A stretch of DNA of 38,775 bases, taken from a virus. The notes below the pieces were generated by a model. It searched no databases. It saw nothing but the letters and a program-made list of their open reading frames with translations, and was not told the origin of the DNA. The position numbers were made by a program, and so were the translations under genes. This document shows, piece by piece, positions 2,703 to 29,114 of this stretch; position 1 is the stretch's first letter; every line of letters begins with the position of its first letter. The stretch covers positions 1 through 38,775 of the IMG/VR virus record IMGVR_UViG_3300003873_000026, one strand, 5' to 3'.

Positions 2703-3791
2703 TTACATATTGTATTTATCAGACCAAGCTTGTTTCATACGATTAACTACTTCTTTCATAATTCTATGTCCACTAACGCCCTCCAGTGATGTTTTACTAG
2801 ATACAGTAGGCAAATTCTTCTTACGATATTGTATAATTAAGGTATACCAATTATCATTACTAATTATTTTAATCTTATGAGGAACATATGGCACTTGAAT
2901 AATATGTGGTTTATTAGTTCCGATTATATATAGATTCCGTTCTAATAGTGCTTGGTCTATAGTATCACATCCTTCACTACCATGTTCTTTACACAGATGT
3001 TTAACAGACCATCGATAACTATACCCTGTCCATCTGATACCTTTATAACCGCTAGTATTATCTCGGCGCAGTCTCTGATTCCTAGACTGTTGTGAACCAC
3101 TACCAGATCTCATATTCCTAGGATCGTAGTTACCATCGTTATCGATCCTATCCATTGATTCACCTGGTCGAATATTACGCATATACCACTTAATGAACTT
3201 AATAGGATCGTGCCATTCTTTACATACGGAGATACCTCTAGCTCCGTAATCTTTATACCTAATATGTTCTTTACCGCCTGATAAGAATTTAAAACGTTTA
3301 ATATCCGATGTCAATAAGCCACTTTTATAACAACGCATCATCATCTGTCGCCATATATCGTATATTCTACCATTCTCACCTACCGTAAGCCCACCCATAG
3401 ATTTACCTAGGTGTCCACAGGACCTAATCTTACCACGCATTACGTTATTAAGACGCTTAACCGTGGTGTCACCACAACTACATTGGAATTTGGTCAGTAC
3501 TGCACCATCAGTATCCTTCTTAACACATATATTAAGCACAGTAAGTTCGTTAAAGGTCTGACCTATATATTGTTTAAGATTCTTGAGTTTGTGTTTACAT
3601 CCACAGCTAGTAGTATGGCCTGTCTTAATTTTATGCCATTGCGTCTCAAACTTACCATCACATAGCAGACACCTTAATTTAACTCTACCACTACCGGCTC
3701 TCGCTAATACTTCTATATCTCCTATAGTATTCCCAACAGCATCTTTGGGTTTCATTTTTGATAATTCTGGATCTCCTAATTTATATATCAT
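2703..3791 (-). CDS. Free-standing HNH-type homing endonuclease, 362 aa
   Basis: A DNA endonuclease of the kind that spreads between phage genomes. Zinc-binding patterns lie in the N-terminal half: CLLCDGKFE, TTSCGCKHKLKN, QCSCGD and IRSCGH. Then comes a region shared by many phage HNH-like endonucleases: KDYGARGISVCKEW, a WYMRNI segment, and the DRIDNDGNYDPRNMR nuclease signature (about residues 216-230), followed by an AP2-like tail (SGYKGIRW). It is a clear paralogue of the 431-aa endonuclease at 11730-13025. It sits between the beta-subunit 3' exon and dUTPase, outside any intron I can see. Specific cleavage site unknown. Confidence 0.88.
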   Translation of the reverse strand: MIYKLGDPELSKMKPKDAVGNTIGDIEVLARAGSGRVKLRCLLCDGKFETQWHKIKTGHTTSCGCKHKLKNLKQYIGQTFNELTVLNICVKKDTDGAVLTKFQCSCGDTTVKRLNNVMRGKIRSCGHLGKSMGGLTVGENGRIYDIWRQMMMRCYKSGLLTSDIKRFKFLSGGKEHIRYKDYGARGISVCKEWHDPIKFIKWYMRNIRPGESMDRIDNDGNYDPRNMRSGSGSQQSRNQRLRRDNTSGYKGIRWTGYSYRWSVKHLCKEHGSEGCDTIDQALLERNLYIIGTNKPHIIQVPYVPHKIKIISNDNWYTLIIQYRKKNLPTVSSKTSLEGVSGHRIMKEVVNRMKQAWSDKYNM

Positions 3792-3942: not shown

Positions 3943-4749
3943 TTATAAATCTTTTGTTTCCTTAACATATTCTAACTCAATACCAGACACATTTAGAATC
4001 GATTGAGTTATTTCAATAGCCTTATCGGTACCATATGGATGTATGTTTCTATCCACCAATACCTCGATATTAGATGGGTTATTAGCCCTAAGGATATTAC
4101 CATACACCAATTTGTGGGATTCTACAGAGTTAGCTCTGTCTTTCATCTCAGCTAAACCTTTCCTGCCAACATAAGCACAGTAAAGGCGGGATTCTGTTTC
4201 AGATAGAATCTTAACAGGGCTGTTCCTATATGGCGTGTTCTGCCTGGTCCTGGGACCTGCTGGGATAGGCATATCATAATGGTTAGTCTTCGCAGATGAA
4301 GTCGCCAGATATGTTTCAGGAGTCTTTGCTAATAATATGATATATTGTGGTGCTATTAATACATCATCCTGACTCCATTTACCACCACCATTACCATCAG
4401 GTATGAAATATTTTGATAGTATTGGTTCGTAGTCAGTTCCAGCTACGTTATTAACTACTTGATAAGGACGAGTCTTGGAAGACACCTTATAGTACACATA
4501 ACATTCCTTTTCATATACCTCCCTTATAATATCTTTTTTCTCCTCATGGTTAGTGTTAAGATACCCAGCATATTGTTCAGTTCCAAATAACTTAATACCA
4601 TTTGTAATTACTTCAAACACTTCTCCTATCTTATCATCGGGTAATGACTCAATGCCTCCGTGTCTATTAACTTCAACCATCAACATGTTCTTTATCTTTC
4701 TAGAGATGGCTGAGAAATAATGCTCGTATAGATTAGATGGATTCATTCT
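3943..4749 (-). CDS. RNA polymerase beta subunit C-terminal part, 3' exon
   Basis: Second exon of the split polymerase gene, about 268 aa. It supplies the part that follows the conserved (S/G)RMN motif of bacterial beta subunits. After splicing the join reads TSIPG-RMNPSNLYEHY, matching the bacterial GVPSRMNxGQ type sequence. Near the end, TPYRNSPVKILSETESRLY and the surrounding residues resemble the region of beta ending in GGQRFGEMEVWAL. An uninterrupted reading extends to an ATG at 4806, but those first 19 residues lie inside the intron: the same bases align with the 3' end of the other group I intron. This corresponds to phiKZ gene 73 in position. The spliced product is about 697 aa. Boundary inferred from intron homology and protein continuity. 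Confidence 0.85.
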   Translation of the reverse strand, partial: RMNPSNLYEHYFSAISRKIKNMLMVEVNRHGGIESLPDDKIGEVFEVITNGIKLFGTEQYAGYLNTNHEEKKDIIREVYEKECYVYYKVSSKTRPYQVVNNVAGTDYEPILSKYFIPDGNGGGKWSQDDVLIAPQYIILLAKTPETYLATSSAKTNHYDMPIPAGPRTRQNTPYRNSPVKILSETESRLYCAYVGRKGLAEMKDRANSVESHKLVYGNILRANNPSNIEVLVDRNIHPYGTDKAIEITQSILNVSGIELEYVKETKDL

Positions 4750-6575
4750 CGTTATATTCAAGTGATTCGTTACGTCACCCCGCACCTCTACATGCCGCTC
4801 ACCCATTACAGATGAAGACTAATCTTATTGATTAGAATGTACCATTTGGTACGACTAGATCATATCAATCCTTTTACATCATATATCAGATGTAGGAAGG
4901 CTCTATCATTTCGGACCCACTTGGTATCCTACAGGGACCTAAACCCCTTGATCGTTGAACTCACACACTCTATGTTACCATAGATGACTCTCGTCGTTGA
5001 AGGTGCTTTGCTGCGCTGATTGTGCCCAGGTCACGAAGTTTTCACTATGCCCTATCTGCTTTATGATAAGGTATTACATTATGTTTCCATATGTAAGTAG
5101 TATTCGTGGCTTTTACTCCATAAGGAGCATGTCGTATTGACATACAGGACTTCCCGCAATTAGATAGATTATTACTATAGCTAAATAGCTATAGCTTTTT
5201 CATCGCTATATTTCTATAACGACGGGCTTATAACATAATATTATGTAGTAGTTGTTACTTAGGGTATTGCGTACCCTTTAATGTTAGATATTGATCAATA
5301 TCCGATGTATTTATACTCTTAGGTATATCTGTTGAATTTTTATAAAACTTATTACCTGCACGATACTTATATATTTTACTAAGCTCGCGGAAAAATGCTC
5401 GGTCTATAGCGTCGAACTCGGTATACATTATGCGTATGAGAGGGATGCCTTGTTGCTTAGCTAATATATTCTTCTTTCTATCTCTCGTTTGCGTATTAGA
5501 CAGACCGACAGCACCACCAAAATATTTTAATGGCTTATAGTGCTGTGGTCCATCTATCTCCACGAGGACATTTAGCTTATTTAAATATACGTCATAACGA
5601 TATACGGAATTTCCTATACGATGCTCTCGTGTGTACTCTATGTTGTTATCTGTTAATATGTTACACATAATGCGCTCATACTTACTTTCTACACATGCGG
5701 GACATCCATTACCACGAACAAGCTCCCTGGCTACTTTGCTAAAATCACCGTGTTTCTTACAGGTAACTATAACAGGGTCGCCATCTCTTACATAGACGAA
5801 CTTATCGTAAGTATATCTATCCCTGAAATGACTCTTGATTTTGGATAGTACCTTATCTTGACTATGGCGTTTTGAATCAACCCCACATATTTTACACCCA
5901 AAACCCTGTATGTGCGTATTTACACGTTGCTCGAACCATCCGTGCTTAGGACATTTGATTCTCATCTTGCTAGATGAGTTCTTATAAGTGGGCCAATCAT
6001 AGGCATATTTATCACCATGTATTTCTTTAACCTTAATCTTAAGCTCACTAAGCGGGAGTTGTTTGCTTTCGATACCACATGCAGTGCATCTATTTCCCTG
6101 TAAATACGAACCGGTTGATATTTCGTAATTACCATGCTTCTTACAAGTCACGATTATCTTAGTGCGACTATTAACAAAGTTGGTGAGCTCATAAGTATCC
6201 GCGCCTTTATGAATCTTCTTACCGAGAGATATCACATCTTTTTTGGTGCGTATATACTTCCTAGGAGGTTTGTCATGTCTGCACACTTTACAACCGATAC
6301 CACCAGATAGATGAGTGTCTGCTCGTTGCTTAAACTTAATGTTATGTTTTATACAGCGAACCACGATAGGCGATTTAGCTCGTTGGTAATCAACTTCTGA
6401 GTAGTCGAATATCTTCTCTACATCATCTCCATATTGTTCCTTCGTACGCTCTAGGAAGCGTGCATTCTTCTCTGTTAATATCATACCGCCTCCTTATTAT
6501 TTTAATTCTCTGTACGCCAACGCAATTACCGTACAACACTACTTTTTCACTACATAATATCAATGTTACTGATTA
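4750..6575 (-). mobile_element. Group I intron in RNAP beta gene, carrying a homing endonuclease
   Basis: Self-splicing group I intron, about 1826 nt, on the minus strand. The 5' exon ends in CCTGGT and the intron ends in AACG, so the last base is G, as group I introns require. The core lies after the endonuclease gene. It contains AATCTATCTAATTGCGGGAA (P3/P4 region), CACAATCAGCGCAGC, the P7 5' strand in GTTCAACGATCA, and its partner TGATC in GATATGATCT (4858-4862 pairing with 4949-4953). These resemble T4 td-type elements. The endonuclease gene sits between the 5' splice site and the core, that is in the P1 region. A candidate internal guide GCTA in GAAAAAGCTAT pairs with exon TGGT. It is homologous to the intron at 29115-29711. 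Confidence 0.88.
5255..6484 (-). CDS. Intron-encoded Vsr-like homing endonuclease, 409 aa
   Basis: Intact endonuclease encoded inside the beta-gene intron; it should cut intron-less alleles and drive homing. The N-terminal two thirds carry repeated units of about 65 residues, each with a C-K-H segment and a zinc knuckle: GCKVCRHD, RCTACGIES, GCKICGVDS, GCPACVESK. The C-terminal domain (about residues 270-370) is Vsr/PD-(D/E)XK-like: SKYERIM, YRYDVYLNKLNVLVEIDGPQ followed by HY, then TRDRKKNILAKQQGIPLIRI, giving the E, D, D, H and D positions expected of EDxHD-type enzymes. It has its own strong ribosome site (AAGGAGGCGG). The position matches phiKZ gene 72, between genes 71 and 73. Confidence 0.88.
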   Translation of the reverse strand: MILTEKNARFLERTKEQYGDDVEKIFDYSEVDYQRAKSPIVVRCIKHNIKFKQRADTHLSGGIGCKVCRHDKPPRKYIRTKKDVISLGKKIHKGADTYELTNFVNSRTKIIVTCKKHGNYEISTGSYLQGNRCTACGIESKQLPLSELKIKVKEIHGDKYAYDWPTYKNSSSKMRIKCPKHGWFEQRVNTHIQGFGCKICGVDSKRHSQDKVLSKIKSHFRDRYTYDKFVYVRDGDPVIVTCKKHGDFSKVARELVRGNGCPACVESKYERIMCNILTDNNIEYTREHRIGNSVYRYDVYLNKLNVLVEIDGPQHYKPLKYFGGAVGLSNTQTRDRKKNILAKQQGIPLIRIMYTEFDAIDRAFFRELSKIYKYRAGNKFYKNSTDIPKSINTSDIDQYLTLKGTQYPK

Positions 6576-7862
6576 ACCAGGAATGGAGGTGGGGTCCATT
6601 ATCATCTCTGCTCTATTACCATTAGCATCTACAGGCATCTCTGAATCTTCTCTAACGCCTACCACAACACCTTTTGATCCATGCAAAGTTGTGACTTTGA
6701 ATCCCGAGATATCAGGGATGGTGGTATGCTCTAATACTATTTCTACACGATATAAATCTACAATATCATTAGTGTTTGTATATCTTACATACCTACTATC
6801 TTCAGTAGCAACATAAGCATCCACTAATAATCTATGTAGTTCTGGAGAAACAGGAATATCAGTTCGATTCCTAGCTCTATAGTTACGATTAGCAGCATCA
6901 TAAGCTGTTATGATTTCGGCATAATACTTCTTAAGACCTACTACATATCGTTCTGCTTGATCAGTAGTAGTTGTATAAACTGACTTCCTTGCTTTTTTAT
7001 TAGAATAAGCTTTAATATCTACAACTTTAGCCCCATTAGATTTAGAATAATATGGCTTATCAAAATATGCTGAATAGTCTCTAACATCACGTCGTGATGT
7101 TGTATTAGGAGACATCATGCTGTCATATCTACGAGTAGCAGCCACAACTCTATCAGTATTAACATACTCCCCTATATCTGGAAATATTTTATATTCAGAA
7201 TCCCCGCCATATAAGTTAAGTGGAAATGATTTCTCTCCAAACTCAATAACAATTACTTCATATGTTCTAAACATAAACTTTTCAGCTAGAGATTTAGAGA
7301 TAATAACACCATCGCCAGTTACTTCTGGTATATGTAGATATGCTAAATTGACTGGTCTCCCAAATCGATAATCTTTACCGCCTTCAGAATCAGTTTCTAC
7401 TGTAGGTGAATCTGCAAAGATAGTACCAGCAGGAACTACGGTACCTAATGCAGCTCCGAGAATATCTTCATTTAGTTTATATCTAAAACCAAAATACTGA
7501 TGTAATTTATGGTATGTGGGTATATTAACTATATCCAACCCACCAGTAGTTAGATCTTCTAGAATTACTGAGTACTCTGTAGTAGAGTTAACAGTAGTGG
7601 CAGACACACCATTGTATCTCTTAATAATAGATAATACTCTCGAGTCATTACGAACCTTACATGAGAATGTATTATCGGCAAGTTGCGAGCCTAGCCCTGT
7701 CTGGATTATTTGTGAGGCTCCATCCTCAATAGTAACCACTTGGGATAAATGCGCAGCACACATAAGTGCTCTAGGTGATGATGATTCTGTCACAAATGGA
7801 TTGATAGCATGTAGGGAAAGTAATTCTTCCCGTATACGTAAGTCCGGATCAGGCATATTCAT
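6576..7862 (-). CDS. RNA polymerase beta subunit C-terminal part, 5' exon
   Basis: First exon, 429 aa, of a phage multisubunit RNA polymerase subunit corresponding to the C-terminal half of bacterial beta. INPFVTESSSPRALM (residues 20-34) matches the fork-like LIPFxxHDDxxRALM. GDGVIISKSLAEK (183-195) matches EDaIvISE. LHGSKGVV (393-400) matches RHGNKGVV, and the last residues AEMIMDPTSIPG match DIVLNPLGVPS just before RMN. Such split polymerases are known from phiKZ (gp71-73 in the non-virion enzyme), where they transcribe late phage genes without host factors. Read without splicing, the frame stops one codon into the intron. A promoter motif, a leader mini-ORF and GGAG lie upstream. The other polymerase subunits except the candidate at 13112-14668 are outside the window. 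Confidence 0.9.
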
Positions 7863-8063: not shown

Positions 8064-8390
8064 ATGCCTAATACCCAACCTATACAAGATAGAATAACCA
8101 ACATGCCTCACCTAGACAAACGCATTATCCTCAAATGGAACACAGCTCTCCCAGATTTACTAGCGAGTAGTAATAATTCTACTATAAAGATAGACGGTCA
8201 GGTAGTAGGTATGTTTATATATGACTTCTATGGTTTACTTAATCATATTGGTATAGATCCAGAATTTTGGTATCCGTATTTGTTAGCTAATGATTATTAT
8301 AACCCTACAGAATTTTTAGGTAATAGATCCATAATTAGATCATTAGACCTACCAACCCTACGAAACTACTATGATGCATTTACCAGATAA
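8064..8390 (+). CDS. Hypothetical protein, 108 aa, plus strand
   Basis: Not recognised. A small mixed protein rich in aromatic residues (FIYDFYGLLNHIGIDPEFWY, then PYL), with no membrane segment and no motif. It is real by its excellent ribosome site, CAGGAGG, seven bases before the ATG, and by its isolated position. It is the only plus-strand gene in the first 20 kb. It is divergent from the polymerase beta gene and faces the structured RNA at 8411-8690. The TTCATGAATATATGAATTAT run before the ribosome site may hold its promoter, but it does not match the common motif. Confidence 0.75.
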   Translation: MPNTQPIQDRITNMPHLDKRIILKWNTALPDLLASSNNSTIKIDGQVVGMFIYDFYGLLNHIGIDPEFWYPYLLANDYYNPTEFLGNRSIIRSLDLPTLRNYYDAFTR

Positions 8391-8410
8391 ATAATATCGA
8401 TACACAGAAC

Positions 8411-8690
8411 AAAAAAATAAATATAACCACTGTAGACATAATTGTCTACAGTGGTTATGATAACATCAAGTATTTTATTTTTACGGTAGAGAGGCGGCGA
8501 GACTATATATGAGTCCCGCTTTGCATGTCAGTGCCGAATGATTTGTACATATATGCCTGACATCATATACGTTTTTGTCATTCATTATACGCCTCTATAC
8601 CAACCAAGTGTGCTATACCCTATGTGGATATAGAACAGCTTGGGTAACTAGAATACATCAATCTTAGTGTTGGTACTATTCTAGTTACTC
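8411..8690 (-). ncRNA. Structured noncoding RNA, about 270 nt, unknown family
   Basis: No convincing ORF is present, yet the segment has a promoter motif at one end and an intrinsic terminator at the other, both for the minus strand. In RNA order it shows: a perfect 12-bp hairpin (8677-8688 with 8644-8655); a second hairpin (8605-8642) with CAAG/CTTG and CTATA/TATAG stems; and a long closing stem (8590-8601 with 8485-8496, one mismatch). The closing stem encloses hairpin ATGTCAG/CTGACAT (8557-8563 with 8525-8531) and an 8-bp hairpin (8512-8519 with 8497-8504). The latter has a G-U wobble on the minus strand that would be A-C on the plus strand. A loop of the fourth element (8536-8541) can pair with 8578-8583 as a pseudoknot. 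The terminator stem is 8423-8458. Confidence 0.75.
8423..8458 (-). terminator. Intrinsic terminator of the structured RNA
   Basis: ATAACCACTGTAGACA pairs with TGTCTACAGTGGTTAT. On the minus strand the stem is followed by ATTTATTTTTTT, a textbook U-tract. The other side is less U-rich. Confidence 0.85.
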
Positions 8691-8713
8691 ATATTAATAA
8701 TATATGGTTATAA
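8690..8713 (-). promoter_or_regulatory. Promoter motif for the structured RNA
   Basis: The minus strand reads ATAACCATATATTATTAATATG, matching the motif found upstream of protein genes. Its 3' TATG is directly followed by the first hairpin of the RNA, so transcription probably starts within a few bases. Confidence 0.7.
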
Positions 8714-8732
8714 AAAATTGATATGCTAATAT

Positions 8733-8760
8733 ACTATGGAGGGGTGCACCCCTCCATAGT
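8733..8760. terminator. Perfect 14-bp palindromic hairpin
   Basis: ACTATGGAGGGGTG and CACCCCTCCATAGT form a perfect inverted repeat between the end of the 446-aa gene and the promoter of the structured RNA. The T-run (GTTTTTTT) is on the plus side, so it is best placed to stop plus-strand transcription, while still able to fold in the minus-strand message. Confidence 0.7.
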
Positions 8761-8771
8761 GTTTTTTTAAC

Positions 8772-10112
8772 TTACCTACCCCATGCGTTAGGCTGCATAG
8801 GTTGTTGTTGTTGCATACCATTACCGAACGCACGCACTTCACCTACAGCACCAATGGATACTGGTTGCATCTGCTGTTGCGGATACATAGGTTGTTGTTG
8901 TTGTGGGTTCTGATATACAGGTTGTTGCACAGGCATCTGCATAGGCATCTGCTGTTGCGGATACATAGGTTGCTGCATCATGGGTTGCGTAGGTTGTTGT
9001 TGATACTGCACAGGCATCTGCGGCTGCATCTGCATAGGTGGATTAGCGACACCACTTACATTACCATACAACGCAGTTCGTATTGCGTCAGCTGTGCTAT
9101 CAGTACTCCCAGCATTCGGATCTACCTGCATCTCCCGCACTGGTTCTTGCATAACAGGCGCGTTAGTAGGCGCGCCCAGTTTAGTCTTGACTAGATCGCT
9201 TTCAGTAGGAATGCTGGCTAATGCTCGTTTGTAAATACCAAGATTAGTGAGTTCGTCAGAATCCACAGTTAACGTTATAACACAACCATCTTCTAGCTCG
9301 CTATCGACTCCATCGATATCGCCTCTAACAGCAGCAAATTTTGTCATCACCTTATTATATAAAGTATATAACGAGATAAATCCAGGACATTCTTTATCAT
9401 TACTACCTATCGTAACGATGCCTTTACTATTGATGTTTTCGATAAGATATTCAAAGATTATCTTAAAGATAGTGATATCCTTATTACGAAGAGTAACTCC
9501 ATTAATACGACCTCCTTTACTCATGCCGAGAAGTTCTTCATATACAGGAGACTTAAATGTCGTCACCCGGTTATATCGTTTACTACCTATACGCCCTCCT
9601 TTCTTAACGTATACTTTAAACATAGGATGACTACCAGCCTCAAATGAGTTATCATAGATCTTTAACCATTTGCTAATAGTATTAGCATCTACGATCTTCT
9701 TAATACCAGGGTTCATAGCTTCTTGAAGTCGTACCAAGAACTGGTTAAGTAACATAGTTGATTTAGTCTGAAACTTAGAATCACTCGCCATGGTTAGTAA
9801 CAAAGAACCCAATACAGTAAATTTATTATTAAGTCTGGTCGTTACTAGCGACTTAGTCTTAGATAACGATAAAGAATCACCCTTGATAATCGTTTCATCA
9901 AGTGGATTATACAATTTTTTCGTTACTATAATCTCCCCGTCAGCATCTTCGTCCAACATGGTGCGAATGTGGTTCTTGGTTGGTAGCACCAGAGGAACGC
10001 CGTCATCAGTATAGTTCACTAATCGATCACCATCGTTAATCATGAGATATCCCTTAGATACCTCTACATCCAAGCTGGATAAAACCCGCTCGTAAAATTC
10101 ATTAATGTCCAT
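8772..10112 (-). CDS. Conserved phage protein with Gln/Met/Pro-rich tail, 446 aa
   Basis: Function not recognised. Residues 1-310 look like a folded domain, with a basic patch (KKGGRIGSKRYNRVTTF) near residue 170. The last ~115 residues are low complexity, built from Gln, Met and Pro with repeated PMYPQQQ and PMQMP units. This tail may be disordered and self-associating. The gene lies two places upstream of the polymerase beta gene, the position of phiKZ gene 70; that link is by order only. It starts with an AGGAGAGAAG ribosome site. The repetitive tail DNA contains a repeated block (about 8870 and 8946), so length variation between relatives is likely. Confidence 0.75.
   Translation of the reverse strand: MDINEFYERVLSSLDVEVSKGYLMINDGDRLVNYTDDGVPLVLPTKNHIRTMLDEDADGEIIVTKKLYNPLDETIIKGDSLSLSKTKSLVTTRLNNKFTVLGSLLLTMASDSKFQTKSTMLLNQFLVRLQEAMNPGIKKIVDANTISKWLKIYDNSFEAGSHPMFKVYVKKGGRIGSKRYNRVTTFKSPVYEELLGMSKGGRINGVTLRNKDITIFKIIFEYLIENINSKGIVTIGSNDKECPGFISLYTLYNKVMTKFAAVRGDIDGVDSELEDGCVITLTVDSDELTNLGIYKRALASIPTESDLVKTKLGAPTNAPVMQEPVREMQVDPNAGSTDSTADAIRTALYGNVSGVANPPMQMQPQMPVQYQQQPTQPMMQQPMYPQQQMPMQMPVQQPVYQNPQQQQPMYPQQQMQPVSIGAVGEVRAFGNGMQQQQPMQPNAWGR
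8868..8975 (-). repeat. Internal repeat in low-complexity gene tail
   Basis: The string CATCTGCTGTTGCGGATACA followed by TAGGTTG occurs twice, about 78 bases apart, within the Gln/Met-rich tail. Shorter GGTTGTTGTTG units recur around it. It encodes repeated MYPQQQMQ-type peptides. Confidence 0.7.
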
Positions 10113-10166: not shown

Positions 10167-11642
10167 TTAATGCCCGCTATAACTACCTACAGTGTTTTCA
10201 GGACTCATACTCATTACGGTATCTACCACTGATTCAAAATCAGAAATAACCGCTTGCTTAGTGAGATTATTAGTAACTACTGGCGAGTATAGACTATCTG
10301 CGAATGTAGGAACCCTATAAATTACAGGACTGCCATTTTCTAAAGCCACACTTATAACAGTATCCCCCAATAGATCACAGTTAAATACAATATCCACTAA
10401 TCTAAGATTAGACATAGATACTTGCGGCATGATAACTGAATTTACATAATTAATGATTCGATTACCATACGGCGTTATATCTACTCCTTCTAGAAATGAA
10501 TTTATATTACTAATGGTAGTAAACGGCATACCTCCCGCATTAGTTACTGTACCACTAATTACCGATACAAGATTTTCACTCATATTAGCAGTCAGCGCAT
10601 TAATGAATGTTTGCGCTACTTGGGTATCTTCTGTGTAGTTAAGCATGGATTCGGTGTTTTCAGTATCGAATCCAGTAGCTAGATGTACGGGGTCAGATAC
10701 AATCCCACCAGAAGCCACCAAAGTGATCTTACTATTAATACCAGGGAACATTCTGTCCATAAGAGACAACGTAAAATACGATGGCTCAATAACACCTGAC
10801 ATGCGTGCGAGTGCGTATATGAATGCATTACTTGTTATAGCTTGTTCTGCGACCATACCATTAGCATTAGCTAGCACCGTTTCTGGTGTATTGAAACCAT
10901 TGTATATTGACTTTCCTGTAATAACAGCATTTATGGTGTTAGTAAAGTATTTAAGCGGATCGTTATTCGCTTTATTACTAACGTTAGCACCATTAGAAGG
11001 TGATGATGTTTTAACTGTTAAATTTACATCAGGCACGCCTGAATACATAGCCGACGAATGCAGGTTAGTAATGACATCATATGGCCTAATTAATTCTATC
11101 CCTGCGGTAGGTTCTGATACTTGTTGGTATGAAGCATTTCCAGTAGGATCAGATACAACATTATACGTAGCAGACACACGACTATCAACTCCATTAGTCA
11201 TCATGTTTCTGGTACGAGTAACTGTTGTTATAGAGTTGATATAAAATGTGGCGTTAGGATCAATCTTACCTGTAAATGACGGATCGTAATATTCACTATA
11301 TCCTTGTAGGTAATGAGCCAGGCTGGTGTTATCATTAACATATTCATCCACTACCAACACAAACATCAGTCTTTGTGTCGCCCACCCATTAGGTATATTA
11401 GCCATACCTGTGGGTGTAGCATTCAGTCTGATAGAACTACCTATCTCGTTAGCCGCCCTAACTACTCCCACTTGACCGTTATTACTAACTCCCTCGTTAA
11501 CAAAGAAGTTATATAGGTTGTCGGCCTGTCCGTTATTTAATCCTAACGAAAAACTTCTTTGGTACATATTGTTATACTCGTGATGACTGGGAATCAACAA
11601 CATCATCTTTATAGATATGTTTGATCCAACATTATTTTGCAT
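10167..11642 (-). CDS. Conserved phage protein, probably structural, 491 aa
   Basis: Not recognised by motif. It is rich in Asn, Ser, Thr and Val and poor in Lys, as many virion proteins are, with no membrane segment. A central segment reads YDPSFTGKIDPNATFYINS. The beginning (MQNNVGSNISIKMMLLIP) is duplicated at 13003-13122, where a degenerate copy overlaps the end of the 518-aa gene. Ancestrally this gene probably started inside that overlap, before an endonuclease gene was inserted between them. Gene order suggests the place of phiKZ gene 69. The ribosome site is ATGGAGGAAT, also part of the duplicated segment. Gene reality is certain; function is not. Confidence 0.8.
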   Translation of the reverse strand: MQNNVGSNISIKMMLLIPSHHEYNNMYQRSFSLGLNNGQADNLYNFFVNEGVSNNGQVGVVRAANEIGSSIRLNATPTGMANIPNGWATQRLMFVLVVDEYVNDNTSLAHYLQGYSEYYDPSFTGKIDPNATFYINSITTVTRTRNMMTNGVDSRVSATYNVVSDPTGNASYQQVSEPTAGIELIRPYDVITNLHSSAMYSGVPDVNLTVKTSSPSNGANVSNKANNDPLKYFTNTINAVITGKSIYNGFNTPETVLANANGMVAEQAITSNAFIYALARMSGVIEPSYFTLSLMDRMFPGINSKITLVASGGIVSDPVHLATGFDTENTESMLNYTEDTQVAQTFINALTANMSENLVSVISGTVTNAGGMPFTTISNINSFLEGVDITPYGNRIINYVNSVIMPQVSMSNLRLVDIVFNCDLLGDTVISVALENGSPVIYRVPTFADSLYSPVVTNNLTKQAVISDFESVVDTVMSMSPENTVGSYSGH

Positions 11643-11729: not shown

Positions 11730-13025
11730 TTAATATTCACCAGGATTATGTGCTCTATCTACTCTATTTAGAGAATTTATTAACTTACACATGACATCCT
11801 TATCAGGGTTCTTAGAGATTGTTCTAGCATCGCTGTAATGTGTGATACCGTTGCTATCGGTTAACACAAGTCGCCATGTTTTAAGGTCCTTGGGATCGTC
11901 TATATGAACAGCCATTTCAACATCTTCTATAATCGCACTTAGCGCATTCGGCCAGCCGTTTTCTATTATATATAGATTGCGGTTCATTACGGCAGTTAAT
12001 ATAGAAGGTTGCGCGCAACCATAACCACGTACTGACTTATACGAAACATGCCACCACCATTTACCGTGACTTGGACCAACTCCAATATATCCAGATTTGT
12101 TAGATTTAGTCTTACGTCTATTAATACTTTGCGTAAATTTATTTGCAGATCGTATATTATTAGGATAATAACCTTTGTCATTATCGATCCTATCCATTGT
12201 TTCATCATCCTTAATATTCTTCATATACCAAGGGACAAATACTTCTGGGTCATACCAGTCCTCACATACCGTAATACCTCGGGAACCATAGTCCTTATAA
12301 CCCGGATGCCGTACACCCCTCTCCAGAAATTTAAGCCCTGGTATATCTGTTATAAAGTGACCAGACTGATAGCATCTACGCATCATGCTATTCCATGCCG
12401 AGTATCCGCGAATAGACTCCTTGCTAGCCACTCCATTTTTAGTATAGACCAAACAACCACAAGATTTGGTATCTCCGGCTTTTATGGTGCGTAGTCGCTT
12501 GATACATATGTTACCACACTCGCACTCACATTCTACTGTAGCTCTATAATAATCATCGGCATTATTGACACATTTAATTATACGCAATCTGCCATATACA
12601 TTACCTATATACTTACTGTAGTCGAGTTTACGCAAACACCCACATGACTTAGTATTTCCATTAATCAGACTACTTAGCTTTACCACCACAGTACTCCCGC
12701 AGTGGCATGCGCACTTCACCATAATACCCCTACGACCTTTAACCCCATTCGCTGACTGTAAAACTTTCAATTTATTATATATTTTACCTATATAATCAGC
12801 GACGTTTAGGCTACGTAAACAACCGCATGATTTATACGCCCCAGCGACTACATTAGTGGCGCGAAATGAGGCATTCTTGCCGCATGATAGACACCTACAC
12901 GATACCATAGTCACGCCTCTATCACCTTGAACCTCTAATATATCTAATATAGTTAATCCTCCATATAGTTTACCTATGTGCGGTGACCACTTTAAATAAC
13001 GCCTATCCGTATGCCATGTTTCCAT
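11730..13025 (-). CDS. Free-standing HNH-type homing endonuclease, 431 aa
   Basis: Paralogue of the 362-aa endonuclease near dUTPase, with one more N-terminal repeat. At least three zinc-type units end in SCGCL (YKSCGCLRSLN, TKSCGCLRKLDYS, TKSCGCLVYTKN), each paired with an upstream CxCxCG motif and an IGxxYxxLxI(L) strand. The nuclease part contains KDYGSRGITVCEDWYDP, WYMKNI and DRIDNDKGYYPNNIR (about residues 275-289), then SGYIGVG and an AP2-like WWWHVSYK. TAGGAGG precedes the ATG. The gene has been inserted between the 518-aa and 491-aa genes with duplication of their junction on both sides, so neither neighbour is broken. The cut site was presumably that junction. Confidence 0.88.
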   Translation of the reverse strand: METWHTDRRYLKWSPHIGKLYGGLTILDILEVQGDRGVTMVSCRCLSCGKNASFRATNVVAGAYKSCGCLRSLNVADYIGKIYNKLKVLQSANGVKGRRGIMVKCACHCGSTVVVKLSSLINGNTKSCGCLRKLDYSKYIGNVYGRLRIIKCVNNADDYYRATVECECECGNICIKRLRTIKAGDTKSCGCLVYTKNGVASKESIRGYSAWNSMMRRCYQSGHFITDIPGLKFLERGVRHPGYKDYGSRGITVCEDWYDPEVFVPWYMKNIKDDETMDRIDNDKGYYPNNIRSANKFTQSINRRKTKSNKSGYIGVGPSHGKWWWHVSYKSVRGYGCAQPSILTAVMNRNLYIIENGWPNALSAIIEDVEMAVHIDDPKDLKTWRLVLTDSNGITHYSDARTISKNPDKDVMCKLINSLNRVDRAHNPGEY

Positions 13026-13122
13026 GTGACCTCCTATACAATATCATTCTCCACACAGCGTGCTCTGTAGGGATTAAATACATCTTATTAACGGAAATAT
13101 TTGATCCAACATTATTTTGCAT
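13003..13122 (-). pseudogene. Truncated duplicate of the 491-aa gene start
   Basis: The reading MQNNVGSNISVNKMYLIPTE matches the first ~20 residues of the 491-aa protein, then diverges and stops after 39 codons, overlapping the endonuclease start. It keeps the ATG and a GGAGG upstream, inside the end of the 518-aa gene. It is best read as the left-hand relic of the original gene start left by endonuclease insertion. Confidence 0.75.
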
Positions 13123-13138
13123 ACGCCAATTCCTCCAT
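13100..13138 (-). repeat. Direct repeat, copy at the end of the 518-aa gene
   Basis: Partner of the repeat at 11620-11657. Here it encodes the last residues of the 518-aa protein (MEELAYAK, stop TAA) while also holding a ribosome site and ATG in another frame. This shows the two genes once overlapped. Confidence 0.85.
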
Positions 13139-14668
13139 GTCTATTATAAATTTAGCTAATTGATTTTTAAATCCTGGGTCTAATAACCTAGGGGCTCCTC
13201 CCGCAAATAACTCATCAGCACAATGCTTAGGTATATTAGGTAGCCATTTCTTACTGAATACAGCATACGTTATATCTGTTATAGATGCCTCAATAATGCT
13301 TTCGGTCTTAGTAGCATTAAGTTGCTTCTCGTACGGATACAACATATTAAGTTTATCTTTAAGTTCTACTTCTAACCTTACGTTAGGCATAATATTAATC
13401 TCTATACCATCACCACTATCAGAAAGCACCTTGGCCAGTAGTAACGCAGCAATAGCCTTATGTCCTCTAACCCATGCTATTACAAACCCTAGACTCACTA
13501 TGTTAATGATCCCAGAAATGTCTACATAATCAAATGATCTAGGGTCAATGATTCTCTTAAATATATAACCAGCAAGTATCACCTGTTCGGTAGAGATTGG
13601 TACTTCTCTAAAACACTGGGCACAATGTAATGCTTCTTCTAATAACGCTCTATTATCACAAGCACCCACATCTCTTATTAGCAGTTCCATATTACCGGCA
13701 TACCAATTTAACTCAGTCTCTATGCCTGATGACAGACTAGATACTGCGCGATATGCCTCTAACATAGATTCCTTATCACCACCATCGCCATCTGGATCTG
13801 ATGAAGGTCTTTTGTCACGGACTTTAGATCCTGAGCTACCTTTGGTTTTAAGTTTGTTAATAATATAGTTATAGATTCTTGTAATAACATTTCTGTTTTT
13901 ATTATCTGTAATTATCGCGGCTATAGAAAGTTTTTGTATCATAACCACGGATAATATATAGTTCGCTAATTCTTCTGTTGGTATCTGTTTCTCAATTATG
14001 GTAACGGAAGATGTCTCGCCAGCACCTACTGTGAGATCGATAAGCACTTCGGCCCAATTCCTTAGTTTAGCGACAGCATTATTCTGCATGATAGGATGGT
14101 TACAAAATATACCGTATAAGATATACTCTCTATGAATACCCAACATACTATCTGACTTACGGATAGCGTACATGGATAATAAACCTACTAAAACTTTAAT
14201 AGGTATTGTTAATGCGGCTAGTTCGTAATAGTCTTGTTTAATATATGTCTGCACCCTAGTGCCAAGACCATCGCTTTCGATTAATGGATCAAATGATTCT
14301 TTAAGATTCTCGGGAGGAACTACTCTGAATACATCTCTCACATACGAGATGATATCCTGCATATCGAACATATCCAATATCGTATATATACTAGCTGTAG
14401 GTGGATGCGACAGACCTCGGTATAAACACGACTCTTCAACCTGGTTAGAACATTCTACTATATTAATATATAGCAACTTCTTGAAATCTGTTCCTTTATA
14501 ATCCAAATATGAATTAAGGAGTTGGAACTGTTCTACCTCGGCTAGTTCCTCCTTATTCCGTTTTGAAATTAAACCAGCAAGACTAAAAGATACTGAATCA
14601 GTACCATTAGGAGAGGATACCTTTATCTCTAATGGTTTAGCCGTCTGTACGTTAAGTAACTCAAACAT
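13112..14668 (-). CDS. Candidate non-virion RNAP accessory subunit (phiKZ gp68-like), 518 aa
   Basis: No enzyme motif is visible. It is a mostly helical protein of 518 residues with a basic linker (KLKTKGSSGSKVRDKRPSS, near residue 275). In phiKZ the non-virion polymerase contains, besides split beta and beta-prime parts, a fifth subunit (gp68, about 520 aa) that has no counterpart in bacteria and helps recognise promoters. It is encoded three genes before gp71. This gene has that size and that place in the order, hence the proposal. Sequence similarity itself was not tested. A promoter motif lies about 90 bases upstream and AAGGAG sits at the start. The stop overlaps the ancestral start of the 491-aa gene. 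Confidence 0.6.
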   Translation of the reverse strand: MFELLNVQTAKPLEIKVSSPNGTDSVSFSLAGLISKRNKEELAEVEQFQLLNSYLDYKGTDFKKLLYINIVECSNQVEESCLYRGLSHPPTASIYTILDMFDMQDIISYVRDVFRVVPPENLKESFDPLIESDGLGTRVQTYIKQDYYELAALTIPIKVLVGLLSMYAIRKSDSMLGIHREYILYGIFCNHPIMQNNAVAKLRNWAEVLIDLTVGAGETSSVTIIEKQIPTEELANYILSVVMIQKLSIAAIITDNKNRNVITRIYNYIINKLKTKGSSGSKVRDKRPSSDPDGDGGDKESMLEAYRAVSSLSSGIETELNWYAGNMELLIRDVGACDNRALLEEALHCAQCFREVPISTEQVILAGYIFKRIIDPRSFDYVDISGIINIVSLGFVIAWVRGHKAIAALLLAKVLSDSGDGIEINIMPNVRLEVELKDKLNMLYPYEKQLNATKTESIIEASITDITYAVFSKKWLPNIPKHCADELFAGGAPRLLDPGFKNQLAKFIIDMEELAYAK

Positions 14669-14798: not shown

Positions 14799-15392
14799 TT
14801 ACACAGATTTACTTTTGGGATCAGTATACTTAACCTGAGCATCGTCAGCTAGATGTTTATCCATGAGTGACTTTAATCGGTTGGTATAGGCTGTAGCATA
14901 TAATGCAGATAATTCTGCTTTATCTGTTATGATATCACCGTCGGCGTTTTTAATCTTATGCCATTTATCATTAGGTAGAATATCAAACTTAACCTTCGTT
15001 TTCTCACCAGATACAACAGCCAGATATAGAATACCATCTTTATCCTTACCGCATATGGCTGTGGCTTGTAGAATTACGTTTTCGGTCTTCATATCATTAA
15101 CGTACTCTATGTTATAACATTCCAGAGAGTATTTTACTGGACCTTTATGCGCTATGGCTTTAGCCATATATCCTATAAAGATGTTAACCATTACAGCATT
15201 CATTGGTGCTATGATTAAATTATCATAACTAAATTCATTGTCTTTCTTATTATGGTTATCCGTATATACAGTTAACCTAGGATATCCCATACGTATAGAC
15301 CAAGTAAGACTAGCATAGCTATCCTTATTAATATCTTTATGCAGTGATAATGGTCCGAATGAGATTATTTTAACTTTATTACTATTTGGCAT
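14799..15392 (-). CDS. Hypothetical protein, 197 aa
   Basis: Not recognised. The N-terminal half has alternating beta-like strands (KVKIISFGPLSLH, SLTWSIRMGYPRLTVYTDN) and a hydrophobic helix (NAVMVNIFIGYMAKAIAHKG, about residues 70-89). The C-terminal part is Lys/Asp-rich and helical. It carries no signal peptide. The strand-rich, charged layout would allow a nucleic-acid-binding role, but this is a guess. It has its own promoter motif (15429-15454) and AGGAGG ribosome site, so it is expressed separately from the gene upstream, which ends in a terminator. Confidence 0.7.
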   Translation of the reverse strand: MPNSNKVKIISFGPLSLHKDINKDSYASLTWSIRMGYPRLTVYTDNHNKKDNEFSYDNLIIAPMNAVMVNIFIGYMAKAIAHKGPVKYSLECYNIEYVNDMKTENVILQATAICGKDKDGILYLAVVSGEKTKVKFDILPNDKWHKIKNADGDIITDKAELSALYATAYTNRLKSLMDKHLADDAQVKYTDPKSKSV

Positions 15393-15573: not shown

Positions 15574-15981
15574 TTACTTATTGGACATTTGTTCAAGAAG
15601 AGTTAATAATCGCTCTTCTCGCACGGCTGCTATATCTGCCTGGTTGCGAATCCAAACATCTTTAGCTATGGACTCTTTTTTAGCCAGTTCTTCCAGACCG
15701 ATACCTCTGGAAATGAATCCAGATATAACCGAGCCAGCTCGTTCCAGATATGGCATGGCCCATCTGGTTGTTACAAAATCATTAACTTTGTTAAACTCAT
15801 GCTCATGTTCGAACCCCGAGCGTTCTTTAGCACGTTCTTTAGCATGCTCTTCTATTTCGGCTTTAGTTTTATCAAACACATCTTTGAATTCTTTATTGCT
15901 ATCAATAGCTTTATCAATACGTTCATTAATTTCCCGATAGCTCTTTTCAAATTCAGTTTCTTCTTGATTGTGACTTGTCAT
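15574..15981 (-). CDS. Charged coiled-coil hypothetical protein, 135 aa
   Basis: The first ~60 residues are highly charged and helical (FEKSYREINERIDKAID, then EEHAKERAKERSGFEHEHEF), consistent with a coiled coil. A mixed C-terminal helix region follows (AKKESIAKDVWIRNQADIAA). There is no membrane segment. Function unknown. It forms a one-gene unit with its own promoter motif and terminator. Its 5' leader (15982-16019) folds into two hairpins, the second presenting the GGGA of the ribosome site in its loop. A matching leader precedes the neighbouring membrane-protein gene, so the two are probably under common translational control. Confidence 0.75.
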   Translation of the reverse strand: MTSHNQEETEFEKSYREINERIDKAIDSNKEFKDVFDKTKAEIEEHAKERAKERSGFEHEHEFNKVNDFVTTRWAMPYLERAGSVISGFISRGIGLEELAKKESIAKDVWIRNQADIAAVREERLLTLLEQMSNK

Positions 15982-16019
15982 AATATCCTCCCATGGATAT
16001 ACTGGTGCTGATCTCCAGT
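15982..16019 (-). promoter_or_regulatory. Structured 5' leader, copy A
   Basis: In RNA order, hairpin 1 is ACTGG, 9-nt loop AGATCAGCA, CCAGT (16015-16019 with 16001-16005). Hairpin 2 follows directly: ATATCC, 6-nt loop ATGGGA, GGATAT (15995-16000 with 15983-15988), with the ATG one base further on. The ribosome site is therefore partly in a loop and partly in a stem. Geometry is identical to copy B upstream of 16762, with compensatory stem changes. Confidence 0.7.
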
Positions 16020-16056
16020 CAAGCGACGCTTACGTATCATTGCTGTATACATAAGT

Positions 16057-16080
16057 CATATTTATAATATATGGTTATAA
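16057..16080 (-). promoter_or_regulatory. Promoter motif upstream of the 135-aa gene
   Basis: The minus strand reads ATAACCATATATTATAAATATG, a close variant of the window consensus ending in TATG, about 75 bases before the start codon. Confidence 0.6.
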
Positions 16081-16119
16081 AAAATTGATTTACATTTTTT
16101 ACTATAAAAAATAAAGATA

Positions 16120-16153
16120 GCCTACTAGATGTCGTATGCGACATCTAGTAGGC
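16120..16153 (-). terminator. Intrinsic terminator after the 200-aa gene
   Basis: GCCTACTAGATGTCG and its perfect complement form a 15-bp or longer stem. The minus strand continues with TATCTTTATTTTTT. Confidence 0.85.
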
Positions 16154-16939: not shown

Positions 16940-17758
16940 TCACAATACTGGTACTTTTATACCAGATTTCTTAATTAGACTAGCGACCTTAACAGGACTA
17001 GACTCTGGGTTTATATGTCCTGTAACCGTCAGTTCATATACCGATCTGCGATCCACAATAGACATAGGTTTGACGATTGACTTATCTCCTAATATATACA
17101 GAAGTTTAGAATCCATTGGTAATATAGATAAATCCCTCTTTCCGATAGGATGATATTTAGGACCAAATTCTCGCTTAGTCTTAACTTTGCCTGTATGTGA
17201 TTCTAATAATGACACTCCAGATAAATTAGAAACACCAATCAAATCTAATGTAAAATGTGACATAAGTAACATAGGGTTATACGTAGAAGGCAATAGTCCT
17301 CGGTTACCTCCTGAATATACAGTACCTGGGTACTTAAGTCCTTTAAGATTCTTCTTAATATATAAATGCGTTATATATGGCCTATATGCAGTATCTGGTT
17401 TACCATTATTATATTTCTTATATAGCTGGGTGTAGTCAGGCATATAGAAAACTAATTTGGTATCAACAGATTTATATAACTCTATTAGTATGTACATATC
17501 ATTAATCAATTGTTCTTGTACTAACTTACTACTAATGAGCTGTTCCTTATCCTTATGCACTATAGAACTAACTACATTTCTAAACAAAGTATAGATGTTA
17601 AATATATGGGTCTTATAACTATTAGGATCTACTCTATCCGGTATACTTCTGTTGGTATCATATACTTTAACATCGAATAATGTTTCGAGTGCTAATCCAG
17701 TACCTATCGAGACGCCAGTAGATGTTACAGTTCTATCATTAACAATATTTTTAAGCAT
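16940..17758 (-). CDS. Hypothetical protein, 272 aa
   Basis: Not recognised. It is a soluble mixed protein with many Tyr, Lys and Ser and no membrane segment. Notable stretches are KLVFYMPDYTQLYKKYNNGK (near 100-119) and a Gly/Pro-rich centre (KYPGTVYSGGNRGLLPSTYN). It has its own promoter motif 18 bases upstream of the ribosome site and its own terminator, so it is transcribed as a single gene. A strong AAGGAGGAG precedes the ATG. A virion or DNA-packaging role cannot be decided from sequence. Confidence 0.7.
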   Translation of the reverse strand: MLKNIVNDRTVTSTGVSIGTGLALETLFDVKVYDTNRSIPDRVDPNSYKTHIFNIYTLFRNVVSSIVHKDKEQLISSKLVQEQLINDMYILIELYKSVDTKLVFYMPDYTQLYKKYNNGKPDTAYRPYITHLYIKKNLKGLKYPGTVYSGGNRGLLPSTYNPMLLMSHFTLDLIGVSNLSGVSLLESHTGKVKTKREFGPKYHPIGKRDLSILPMDSKLLYILGDKSIVKPMSIVDRRSVYELTVTGHINPESSPVKVASLIKKSGIKVPVL

Positions 17759-17803: not shown

Positions 17804-18925
17804 CTAATTAGCAACTACCGTATCTAATTCTGATAATACTATATCCATATCAACCCTACTAAGATTATGTTTACCTAACTCCTCGGTAAGAAGTGATCTT
17901 ATGTTACCCTTAGTTATTTCAAATGGAGTAAATACCACTCTATTATTCACAACTTTATCATCACTAACAACCACCTTCTTTTTATCCACAGATATTATAA
18001 GATCCTTATATTTATCTCTAATAGGAACTAATAGTTTATTTATATCAGTACCAGATACAACTATCTTAACTCTAGTTCCCAACGCTAGTTTATTTAATTC
18101 TTTATTAAGAAATTTAGACATATCCGATGTTTGCATACTAGATATATCATACTTTCTATATGGATAAGCATTCTTATTTTCTATAAACAAGAATTCCATA
18201 TCACCAGTATGATATATAGTCATCATCATGAGTCCTTTCTTTTCCTCTTCATTATGAGCTAATCTATCAAATGAGCCTTGTGCTAGTATTCTGCGGTATG
18301 CAGATGAGGTATGTATATGACCTATGTTTATGTAATACCTTACTAACTCTAGATATGAATCTTCGTTATGAGATGACTCAAGTTCTATCATGGGTAACTG
18401 ATAATCAAACTGACCATGCATAATAGCTATATCTACTTTATCTAAATCATGTTTAGTCATAAGATCTTGTACGTTATCTAAAGTATCATTAGCTATTCTG
18501 TTCCATTCATCTGGTACATACAGAACGGTAATACCTAGGTCTTCAATACTTTCAATGTGTAAATAATCTATATACTTATAATCAACATCAATACATAGTG
18601 CTTCTAGAGTGTTAGCAAATAACCTCATTTGTTTCCAGTCGTGGGATGGGGTTCCTTCTAATACTCTTAATTTTATCTTATTAGATACACAATACATAGC
18701 CAGTCTTGATAACCATTCGTTAGCCATAACAAATTCATTAGAACAGGATGCTAGTAATTTATCAAACACATCACCAGCTAGAAATATTATATCTAGTTTC
18801 TTAAATCTATTATGGTTCTTTCTGAGTACGCCATCTAGATTACTTATTATATAATCTGTTTTAGTCCGACTATGTCCCAGATGTATATCTGATAATACTA
18901 GATATTTTATATTAGACTTTTTCAT
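17804..18925 (-). CDS. Calcineurin-like metallophosphoesterase, SbcD/Mre11-like, 373 aa
   Basis: A two-metal phosphoesterase, probably a DNA nuclease acting in recombination, repair or end processing. The family motifs are in order: DIHLGH (residues 13-18), GDVFDK (51-56), GTPSHD (91-96, in place of the usual GNHD, keeping His and Asp), IMHGQFD (168-174) and INIGHIHT (199-206). GSFDR follows soon after. The first Asp/His pairs and the last GHxH are the metal ligands, so the active site looks complete. The C-terminal ~120 residues would be the capping part, as in SbcD. No SbcC-like ATPase is in the window. It overlaps the upstream membrane-protein gene by 14 bases, suggesting coupling. Confidence 0.88.
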   Translation of the reverse strand: MKKSNIKYLVLSDIHLGHSRTKTDYIISNLDGVLRKNHNRFKKLDIIFLAGDVFDKLLASCSNEFVMANEWLSRLAMYCVSNKIKLRVLEGTPSHDWKQMRLFANTLEALCIDVDYKYIDYLHIESIEDLGITVLYVPDEWNRIANDTLDNVQDLMTKHDLDKVDIAIMHGQFDYQLPMIELESSHNEDSYLELVRYYINIGHIHTSSAYRRILAQGSFDRLAHNEEEKKGLMMMTIYHTGDMEFLFIENKNAYPYRKYDISSMQTSDMSKFLNKELNKLALGTRVKIVVSGTDINKLLVPIRDKYKDLIISVDKKKVVVSDDKVVNNRVVFTPFEITKGNIRSLLTEELGKHNLSRVDMDIVLSELDTVVAN

Positions 18926-27292: not shown

Positions 27293-28594
27293 CTAACTAT
27301 ATATTAATCTATCTAATTTCTCGATAGATATATCTTTTCTAGACAGTATATCAGATATCATAGGTATAGATATCTGATGTATATTAACATGTATGGAATC
27401 TAACCCGCCACTAATAGTATATGGTCTTATGAATCTAATTAATTCTACGATACCGATAACTATTACTGACGTGTCGTTACCTACTTTTACTCTATATACA
27501 GAAGTGTTAATCATTCTATTATTCTTACTACATATTAAATCACTTTCCGTACGGCGTGACCACACTAGTGGCATTTCTGTTTCTGTATAACTGCGGATAC
27601 CTAATCCTAGTAATATCCCAGTCTGACCAGCGTTCTTGTAATACTTAATAGTCCTAGTTACTATAGATGGATTATCTATAGGTATTCCTGAATACTCGCT
27701 TAACTCTTTACACACATCCTGTAGTGAATTAAATACTTTTGATTCCTTAGTATAGTAGTTATATATTTCATACTTAATATTCCTAAAATTAATATATGTA
27801 GTACTTCTATATTTTTCTCGGGCTGATATTATATCCTTATCACTAGATGTTATAACACTCGTGTCGGTTATAGGTGTTTTTGATATTATATATCCTTGTG
27901 CCAAAGGGGTATTATTACCAGTCCGTATGATCCTGGCTAAATTGTTTATACCACACATATAGCTAGCGGCATAAATGCTAGGATATTCAGAAGTTGTATC
28001 TGTCAATTTGTCATAAATATATATAATACTACCTAACTTATCACTTTTAGGACGGCATAACAATCTATTTTCATCTAGTGTTATTACATATTTACCCATA
28101 AAAGGATGTTCCTTAGAATACCTAATTTTATATATAACAGCTATAGATGCTACGCCTAAGTATGTGCATAACCGCTCTAGTGATTTAAATTCCTTAGTTA
28201 TTCCTGTGTTTTTATCGAGCAGAGATACTGGCACGTTATTAACCGTAAGATTATTATCTACAGCATGTGCCATATTTTCACTACCAGTACACCATTCTAG
28301 GTTATCCACATGGTTATTAGTTTTAATACCATCTTTATGATTAACTTGTGCTCTATTGTCGGGGTTAGGGATAAACGCCTTAGCCACTAGTCTGTGTATT
28401 GAATATTTTATTGGTTTTGGCTTACCATTAACCATTTTGCGCACGCCAGCGCGCAGATAGCCATATTTAGATAAATATGGTTTTATTGGTTTATTTTTTC
28501 TATTACTAATAACCATACCAGTATTAGTTATGCTATAATCAGGACATCCTTCAATACCCTTAGTTATTACTTTTATTTCTTTATTATTGCTCAT
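27293..28594 (-). CDS. NUMOD4/HNH homing endonuclease, 433 aa
   Basis: Free-standing homing endonuclease. The N-terminal NUMOD4-like part reads GCPDYSITNTGMVISNRKNK (residues 15-34) and is followed by the HNH module: YSIHRLVAKAFIPNPDN, QVNHKDGIKTNNHVDNLEWC (near 84-103), then SENMAHAVDN. The remaining ~300 residues contain several helix-turn-helix-like NUMOD units (SLERLCTYLGVASIAVIYKI, PSIYAASYMCGINNLARIIR, SLQDVCKELSEYSG) that would bind DNA. It differs in family from the other endonucleases here. It lies back to back with the DHH gene, whose own intron lacks an intact endonuclease, so it may serve that intron or that locus. A promoter motif and a long U-tract terminator bracket it. Confidence 0.9.
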   Translation of the reverse strand: MSNNKEIKVITKGIEGCPDYSITNTGMVISNRKNKPIKPYLSKYGYLRAGVRKMVNGKPKPIKYSIHRLVAKAFIPNPDNRAQVNHKDGIKTNNHVDNLEWCTGSENMAHAVDNNLTVNNVPVSLLDKNTGITKEFKSLERLCTYLGVASIAVIYKIRYSKEHPFMGKYVITLDENRLLCRPKSDKLGSIIYIYDKLTDTTSEYPSIYAASYMCGINNLARIIRTGNNTPLAQGYIISKTPITDTSVITSSDKDIISAREKYRSTTYINFRNIKYEIYNYYTKESKVFNSLQDVCKELSEYSGIPIDNPSIVTRTIKYYKNAGQTGILLGLGIRSYTETEMPLVWSRRTESDLICSKNNRMINTSVYRVKVGNDTSVIVIGIVELIRFIRPYTISGGLDSIHVNIHQISIPMISDILSRKDISIEKLDRLIYS

Positions 28595-28718: not shown

Positions 28719-29114
28719 ATGAATATAGACGATATCTCGCAAATGTCTCTTGAAATAGTAAGACAGAATGTCCGTAATTATGACCAATTATCAGATGGTG
28801 AAATATTGCAGTATTTTGATTCTAAATTCGATATAACTAAGATACCATCTCTAACAGATGAGGATAAAGCAGTAGCGTTAATAAATGAAGTTATATCAAA
28901 TAATAAGCGTATAGCCATCATAGTCGATTATGACTCAGATGGACTCAACTCAGGAGCCGTAGCGCATAAAGCCCTAGAAGGTAAGTCTAGTAATTATGTC
29001 GTAATAAACAATAAACGATGTAATGGAAATGGTTTTAATAAAGTTCTAAACGCTAGAATAATGAAGATGCATGATGAGACTCCTATTGATCTTATAATCA
29101 CAGGTGATCATGGT
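28719..29114 (+). CDS. DHH phosphoesterase (RecJ-like), 5' exon
   Basis: First 132 residues of a DHH-family phosphoesterase, probably a 5'-3' single-strand DNA exonuclease like RecJ or a related small-substrate phosphodiesterase. It contains the first metal motif IAIIVDYDSDGLNSGAV (Asp70, Asp72, Asp74) and the start of the next (DLIITGDHG, Asp130 and His131). Read without splicing the frame runs six codons into the intron and stops. I place the exon end after GGT at 29114 because the other intron in the window also follows GGT, and because the joined sequence, GDHG-SSCRDELKELKDYG, matches the spacing in RecJ proteins. The start has CGGAGG eight bases upstream. Confidence 0.85.

Follow-up and report, generated by a model that had tools for sequence, protein, structure and literature searches.

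GOLLD, ROOL, and OLE are ornate non-coding RNAs, and the first two of them are found in phages. In nucleus-forming jumbo phages, non-coding RNAs have received very little study, and the few examples known were obtained by profiling the RNA of phiKZ and phiR1-37. Grad-seq of phiKZ revealed ncRNAs from the 3' UTR of PHIKZ298 (about 100 nt) and the 5' UTR of p40 (about 180 nt) (PMC8545117), and a 297-nt ncRNA, misc_4, was seen by RNA-seq in phiR1-37 (PMC4848604). As for promoters, the early ones of AR9 follow the layout AAATATATATTAT-(6N)-G+1, and those of phiKZ and phiR1-37 likewise start 6 nt downstream (PMC5312081). In both phiKZ and AR9, the nvRNAP genes belong to the early class (PMC7598289), and TATG is the late start motif of phiKZ (PMC4666361).

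Here, we describe a probable new RNA gene from a phage of this kind, with good sequence support and no homologue in the records searched. A preliminary description had reported a structured minus-strand segment at this position, an observation that was confirmed, with the refinements given below.

The window and its conserved gene block

The 38.8-kb window (the whole stretch of DNA analysed) was assigned to a phiKZ-like jumbo phage on the basis of synteny from gp65 to gp71/73, with six minus-strand genes matching phiKZ gp65, gp67, gp68, gp69, gp70, and gp71/73 in that order. The genes of the block are the following:

17804-18925, minus strand: homologue of phiKZ gp65, SbcD-like (common PHROG and position)
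16940-17758: gene at the position of phiKZ gp66 (positional match)
14799-15392, minus strand: homologue of phiKZ gp67, ChmC
13112-14668, minus strand: homologue of phiKZ gp68, sigma-like nvRNAP subunit
10167-11642, minus strand: homologue of phiKZ gp69, PicA
8772-10112, minus strand: homologue of phiKZ gp70, with its stop at 8772
8064-8390, plus strand: small gene of phrog_3455 between the gp70 homologue and the beta gene, with its stop at 8390
6573-7862/3943-4806, minus strand: homologue of phiKZ gp71/73, nvRNAP beta

An identification of the gp70 homologue as the RNA-binding protein ChmC was rejected, ChmC being gp67 and PicA gp69. The phrog_3455 gene is kept between gp70 and beta in relatives, on the opposite strand every time, and its phiKZ counterpart is an unannotated 124-aa minus-strand ORF (L301, 4671-5045).

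Introns and endonuclease genes are also present in the window. The conserved GNRAE..DPTSIP region of nvRNAP beta (3943-7862, minus strand) is broken by a probable group I intron, with a weak RF00028 match at 4837-5228 and an HNH ORF at 5255-6484. This intron is common to the relatives L127 and L128, which add a second one about 30 codons upstream; the beta gene of another relative, G003, carries the upstream intron only, which has neither an ORF nor an Rfam match and sits at the point that separates gp71 from gp73 in phiKZ. A RecJ-like exonuclease gene (28719-30995, plus strand) is divided by a group I intron without ORF (RF00028 match at 29251-29623, E 1.6e-7, under the gathering score). Three more HNH endonuclease genes were found on the minus strand (11730-13025, 2703-3791, and 27293-28594), one of which separates the homologues of gp68 and gp69.

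Signals and predicted fold of the segment

The stops of the gp70 homologue (8772) and of the small gene (8390) delimit a spacer of 381 nt, in which the minus strand begins with a promoter (8720-8690), followed by two hairpins (H1 and H2), then by a domain with several branches (H3), and finally by a terminator (8458-8423). The features identified are:

8690-8720, minus strand: phage early-type promoter, TTTTTTATAACCATATATTATTAATATG, predicted start G8690, 6 nt past TATATTAT
8411-8690, minus strand: predicted ncRNA transcript of about 275-280 nt from promoter to terminator, with no ORF above 34 aa and a fold z of -9.6
8644-8688, minus strand: H1, the 5' hairpin, 8677-8688 with 8644-8655, 12 perfect bp and a 21-nt loop
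8604-8643, minus strand: H2, the second hairpin, 16 bp in three segments, with a minus-only G-U pair (8628-8618)
8485-8601, minus strand: H3, multibranched domain, closing stem 8590-8601 with 8485-8496, 11 pairs and one mismatch
8578-8583 with 8536-8541 and 8564-8572 with 8547-8555, minus strand: inner stems of H3 (predicted fold)
8513-8520 with 8498-8505, minus strand: H4, hairpin inside H3 (predicted fold)
8525-8563, minus strand: predicted pseudoknot helix of 7 bp, loop AUGUCAG (8563-8557) with CUGACAU (8531-8525)
8410-8458, minus strand: intrinsic terminator, perfect 16-bp stem (8423-8458), 4-nt loop, tail ATTTATTTTTTT
8731-8767, plus strand: opposed terminator, 14-bp stem (8731-8762) and T run, absent from the preliminary description

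In agreement with the claim that 8411-8690 holds no convincing ORF, no credible one was found in the segment, the longest being of 34 aa on the minus strand and 31 aa on the plus strand. The U-tract terminator proposed for the minus strand was also recovered, as a perfect 16-bp stem followed by a U-rich tail, in the style of the other operon-end terminators of this phage. The plus-strand terminator, for its part, could end a transcript of the gene at 8064-8390 that would run antisense through the whole RNA.

The promoter motif TATAACCATATATTATTAATATG terminates at G8690 on the minus strand and recurs before genes in the window, L127, L128, and G003. When both strands of the window were scanned with a matrix trained on 14 G003 sites alone, the 8690 promoter ranked first, with 28.9 bits, followed by a site at 16087 with 27.4 bits; this top rank and the conservation of the motif among relatives bear out the phage promoter previously placed at this border of the segment. 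Two degenerate matches on the minus strand of G003, of which one is intragenic, were left out of the comparison. Each of the other 22 clean matches in the window, L127, L128, and G003 is followed by an ORF after 27-185 nt, while 832 nt separate the RNA promoter from the next ORF on its strand. Early promoters with no ORF behind them could be sought cheaply with this matrix. The second-best site, 16087 (region 15574-16153), precedes a 135-aa gene at 15574-15981 that has no PHROG match and is a candidate early host-takeover gene.

The arrangement CATATATTAT-TAATAT-G8690, with an AT-rich block near -10, fits the early layout of virion-RNAP promoters (in AR9, AAATATATATTAT-(6N)-G), and from their 6-nt start rule, the 5' end of the RNA is predicted to be G8690. 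The same motif precedes nvRNAP beta itself in L127 and L128, and the gene before beta in L129; since nvRNAP genes are early, its position in L127 and L128 leads us to read it as a virion-RNAP promoter. The RNA gene would then probably be switched on by the injected virion RNA polymerase, its early timing being inferred from motif similarity. As the promoter ends in TATG, which also fits the phiKZ late start motif, late or dual use is possible.

The whole unit folds at -103 kcal/mol (z -9.6), a score to which the terminator contributes. Without it, the core (8482-8648) still gave z values of -6.35 to -6.85 on the minus strand and -5.05 on the plus strand against shuffled sequence; across the record, z of -6 or lower on either strand was reached by 5 of 307 windows of equal length, four of which contain terminator hairpins. 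By regions, H2 alone (8603-8648) scored -4.4 on the minus and -2.85 on the plus strand, and H3 (8482-8602) scored -5.5 on the minus strand. The structural elements of the preliminary description were recovered here, namely the perfect 12-bp 5' hairpin, which begins 2 nt from the predicted 5' end, the second hairpin, and the long stem closing the inner hairpins, with its single mismatch. The pseudoknot was refined: the 6-bp helix reported earlier (8536-8541 with 8578-8583) is present, and a stronger helix of 7 bp, between 8557-8563 and 8525-8531, crosses that stem. AUGUCAG lies in the loop of a 9-bp hairpin, its duplex with CUGACAU amounts to -9.7 kcal/mol, and seven matches arose in 0.045% of shuffles of both short segments (p 0.00045), the predicted geometry being that of an H-type pseudoknot within a multiway junction.

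The minus strand had also been deduced from a G-U pair, and three minus-only pairs were found inside core stems (8628-8618, 8570-8549, and 8516-8500). However, wobble pairs also occur on the plus strand, most of them at the edges of stems, so that this argument is supportive and not decisive; a strand assignment from G-U pairs alone was dropped as ambiguous.

Homologue searches and the same spacer in relatives

A search of the whole window against Rfam 15 gave no RNA-family match for the segment at the gathering cut-off, and a lax search of the segment gave weak matches only, far under the cut-offs, in line with the earlier remark that it fits no named RNA family. The group I intron model RF00028, which sees the two introns of the window, gave no match in the segment. 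By blastn, only short chance matches were found among phages and plasmids, and the best matches among 78 records of relatives were AT-rich words of 14-41 nt. A covariance-model search of related jumbo phage genomes, as proposed in the preliminary description, was run on about 110 records including phiKZ and phiR1-37 and yielded no homologue: nothing exceeded chance, and the best match, of 13.1 bits, had most base pairs broken; being built from one sequence, the model would miss distant relatives. Pattern scans of IMG/VR for the closing stem, H1, and the promoter, as well as one scan of GTDB for the closing stem, returned chance matches or nothing. Within the window, no core-like sequence was found elsewhere, and none of the other long spacers that precede beta in 83 loci showed a comparable fold on the strand tested. 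ToxI-type antitoxin RNAs are marked by a short pseudoknot unit repeated in tandem next to a toxin gene; these features were not found either, the segment having no tandem repeats and its neighbours being the gp70 homologue and the phrog_3455 gene.

The spacer between gp70 and the small gene could be compared in phiKZ (41 nt), FLC9 (92 nt), RVTF4 (33 nt), and those of the closest metagenomic relatives, picked by three protein alignments, that span it: L127 and L128 (60 nt each) and L129 (43 nt). The RNA unit is absent from this spacer in all six. In phiKZ and L127-L129, the spacer contains one common hairpin terminator; in the window, the hairpin at 8731-8762 occupies the expected place of that terminator, and the RNA unit comes after it. 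With spacers of only 33-92 nt in these phages, the RNA is probably an insertion specific to the lineage of the window, which is the simplest reading, loss in all the others being less likely. The spacer between the small gene and beta is also variable, with a kinase-like ORF in L128 and extra genes in LucasX and phiKZ, and so the region tolerates accessory units. The location next to the polymerase genes noted previously is true as an adjacency; however, it is part of a conserved arrangement of genes in which relatives have no such RNA, and hence it implies no link with the RNA polymerase.

Interpretation and comparison with known RNAs

The promoter motif, the terminator, the missing ORF, the above-chance fold, and the absence from relatives are observed directly, and we consider it likely that the segment is a non-coding RNA gene. 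The discrete minus-strand RNA gene proposed earlier is thus supported by promoter, terminator, fold, and lack of ORF, all of them evidence from sequence. Counting against it, good folding is seen on the plus strand too (z -5.1), and the opposed terminator allows a plus-strand transcript. The position of this terminator, past the RNA, makes overlapping convergent 3' UTRs the strongest rival, with the gp70 mRNA extending to 8423-8458 and that of the small gene to 8731-8762, where a structured UTR or antisense RNA would regulate or stabilise mRNAs and would possibly be processed like the PHIKZ298 fragment. The two opposed terminators flanking the segment, the above-chance folding of both strands, and the stable 3'-UTR-derived RNA known in phiKZ (PMC8545117) agree with it. 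We nevertheless regard it as unlikely, given the full phage promoter inside, just upstream of the structure, the preference of the fold and of the internal G-U pairs for the minus strand, and the relatives, which end both genes with a short common hairpin and without a long UTR.

That the hairpins only stop or separate convergent transcription, with no function in trans, would suit a location between convergent genes with strong hairpins at both ends, but a core that is multibranched, pseudoknotted, and devoid of U-tracts does not resemble a row of terminators, and a single hairpin in 33-92 nt suffices in relatives; we find this quite improbable. Similarly little weight is given to a DNA element or a remnant of a mobile element (an origin, an intron relic, or inverted repeats that work at the DNA level) with no functional RNA: the segment is present as an insertion in the lineage of the window only, and this phage has introns and HNH genes, but neither a group I intron nor any other Rfam match was found in the segment, nothing core-like exists elsewhere in the window, and a promoter and a terminator would hardly be explained. 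A leader or attenuator of RNAP beta, in which a longer transcript would pass a conditional terminator into 7862-6573, is very improbable. Beta is indeed the next gene on the same strand, and its own motif at 7951 matches less well, but a promoter-like site stands just upstream of beta, as in L127 and L128, a gene on the opposite strand intervenes, and the terminator at 8423-8458 is strong.

For the non-coding RNA gene, we infer transcription, early timing, and stability. At the onset of infection, the virion RNA polymerase, which is injected along with the genome, would transcribe the RNA from G8690 on the minus strand, and the transcript, of about 275-280 nt, would stop at the terminator (8423-8458). 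The RNA was probably gained as an accessory unit between the gp70 homologue and the small opposite-strand gene, and its 5' and terminator hairpins may shield its ends. Complementarity to gene starts within the window was not above that of shuffles, a mild argument against base-pairing to phage mRNAs in the window, and the RNA would most likely work in trans, stable and pre-folded, as a ligand or decoy. In such a case, the pseudoknotted H3 domain could bind a protein, which may come from the host, from a defence system, or from the phage itself, for instance the RNA-binding ChmC homologue, a mechanism that we put forward as a tentative conjecture. The targets suggested in the preliminary description (host or phage regulators, defence systems, the phage polymerase) are likewise guesses. 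The account as a whole, of an early, discrete, folded ncRNA encoded by an accessory unit and acting in trans via a protein, falls just short of what we would call probable. It seems rather improbable that this RNA founds a so far unnamed class of RNAs from jumbo phages, pseudoknotted, early, and driven by the injected polymerase, which, prior to formation of the phage nucleus, would serve as takeover or counter-defence factors or as the RNA component of an early phage ribonucleoprotein. If the proposal is true, an RNA gene with its own early promoter would give one of the earliest products of infection, at a stage that decides on the takeover of the host and on escape from its defences, and such a compact RNA-only factor would be invisible to protein-based annotation.

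Among known RNAs, GOLLD, ROOL, and OLE are far larger than the RNA of the window, whose segment has no Rfam match. misc_4 of phiR1-37, likewise from a phiKZ-like phage, is similar in length, occupies a spacer next to an RNAP beta gene, and has a strong fold (L298 3641-3937, z -7.8), predicted as a row of long simple hairpins; however, it adjoins virion beta, a different gene from the nvRNAP beta of the window. Its candidacy as a homologue was rejected, as the best score of the full covariance model over its region was 9.4 bits, for a match squeezed into 53 nt of the opposite strand.

The Grad-seq RNAs of phiKZ resemble the predicted RNA in being structured, non-coding, and without credible ORFs in a phage of the phiKZ type. 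They are derived from UTRs and described as two stem-loops, the PHIKZ298 fragment having no start site of its own (PMC8545117), whereas the RNA predicted here is flanked by a promoter and a terminator of its own and folds into several branches with a pseudoknot; with a full promoter motif directly upstream, it differs from UTR-derived RNAs that have no own start site, and processing is possible. The promoter itself shares with the early promoters of phiKZ, AR9, and phiR1-37 the AT-rich block around -10, which contains TATATTAT, as well as a start that follows after 6 nt, while the motif of this phage differs from them in its upstream TATAACC and its TATG end; those promoters stand before early genes, whereas this one drives no ORF. 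Phage ncRNAs are already known, and what would distinguish the present one is the combination of its own putative early promoter with a predicted multibranched, pseudoknotted fold.
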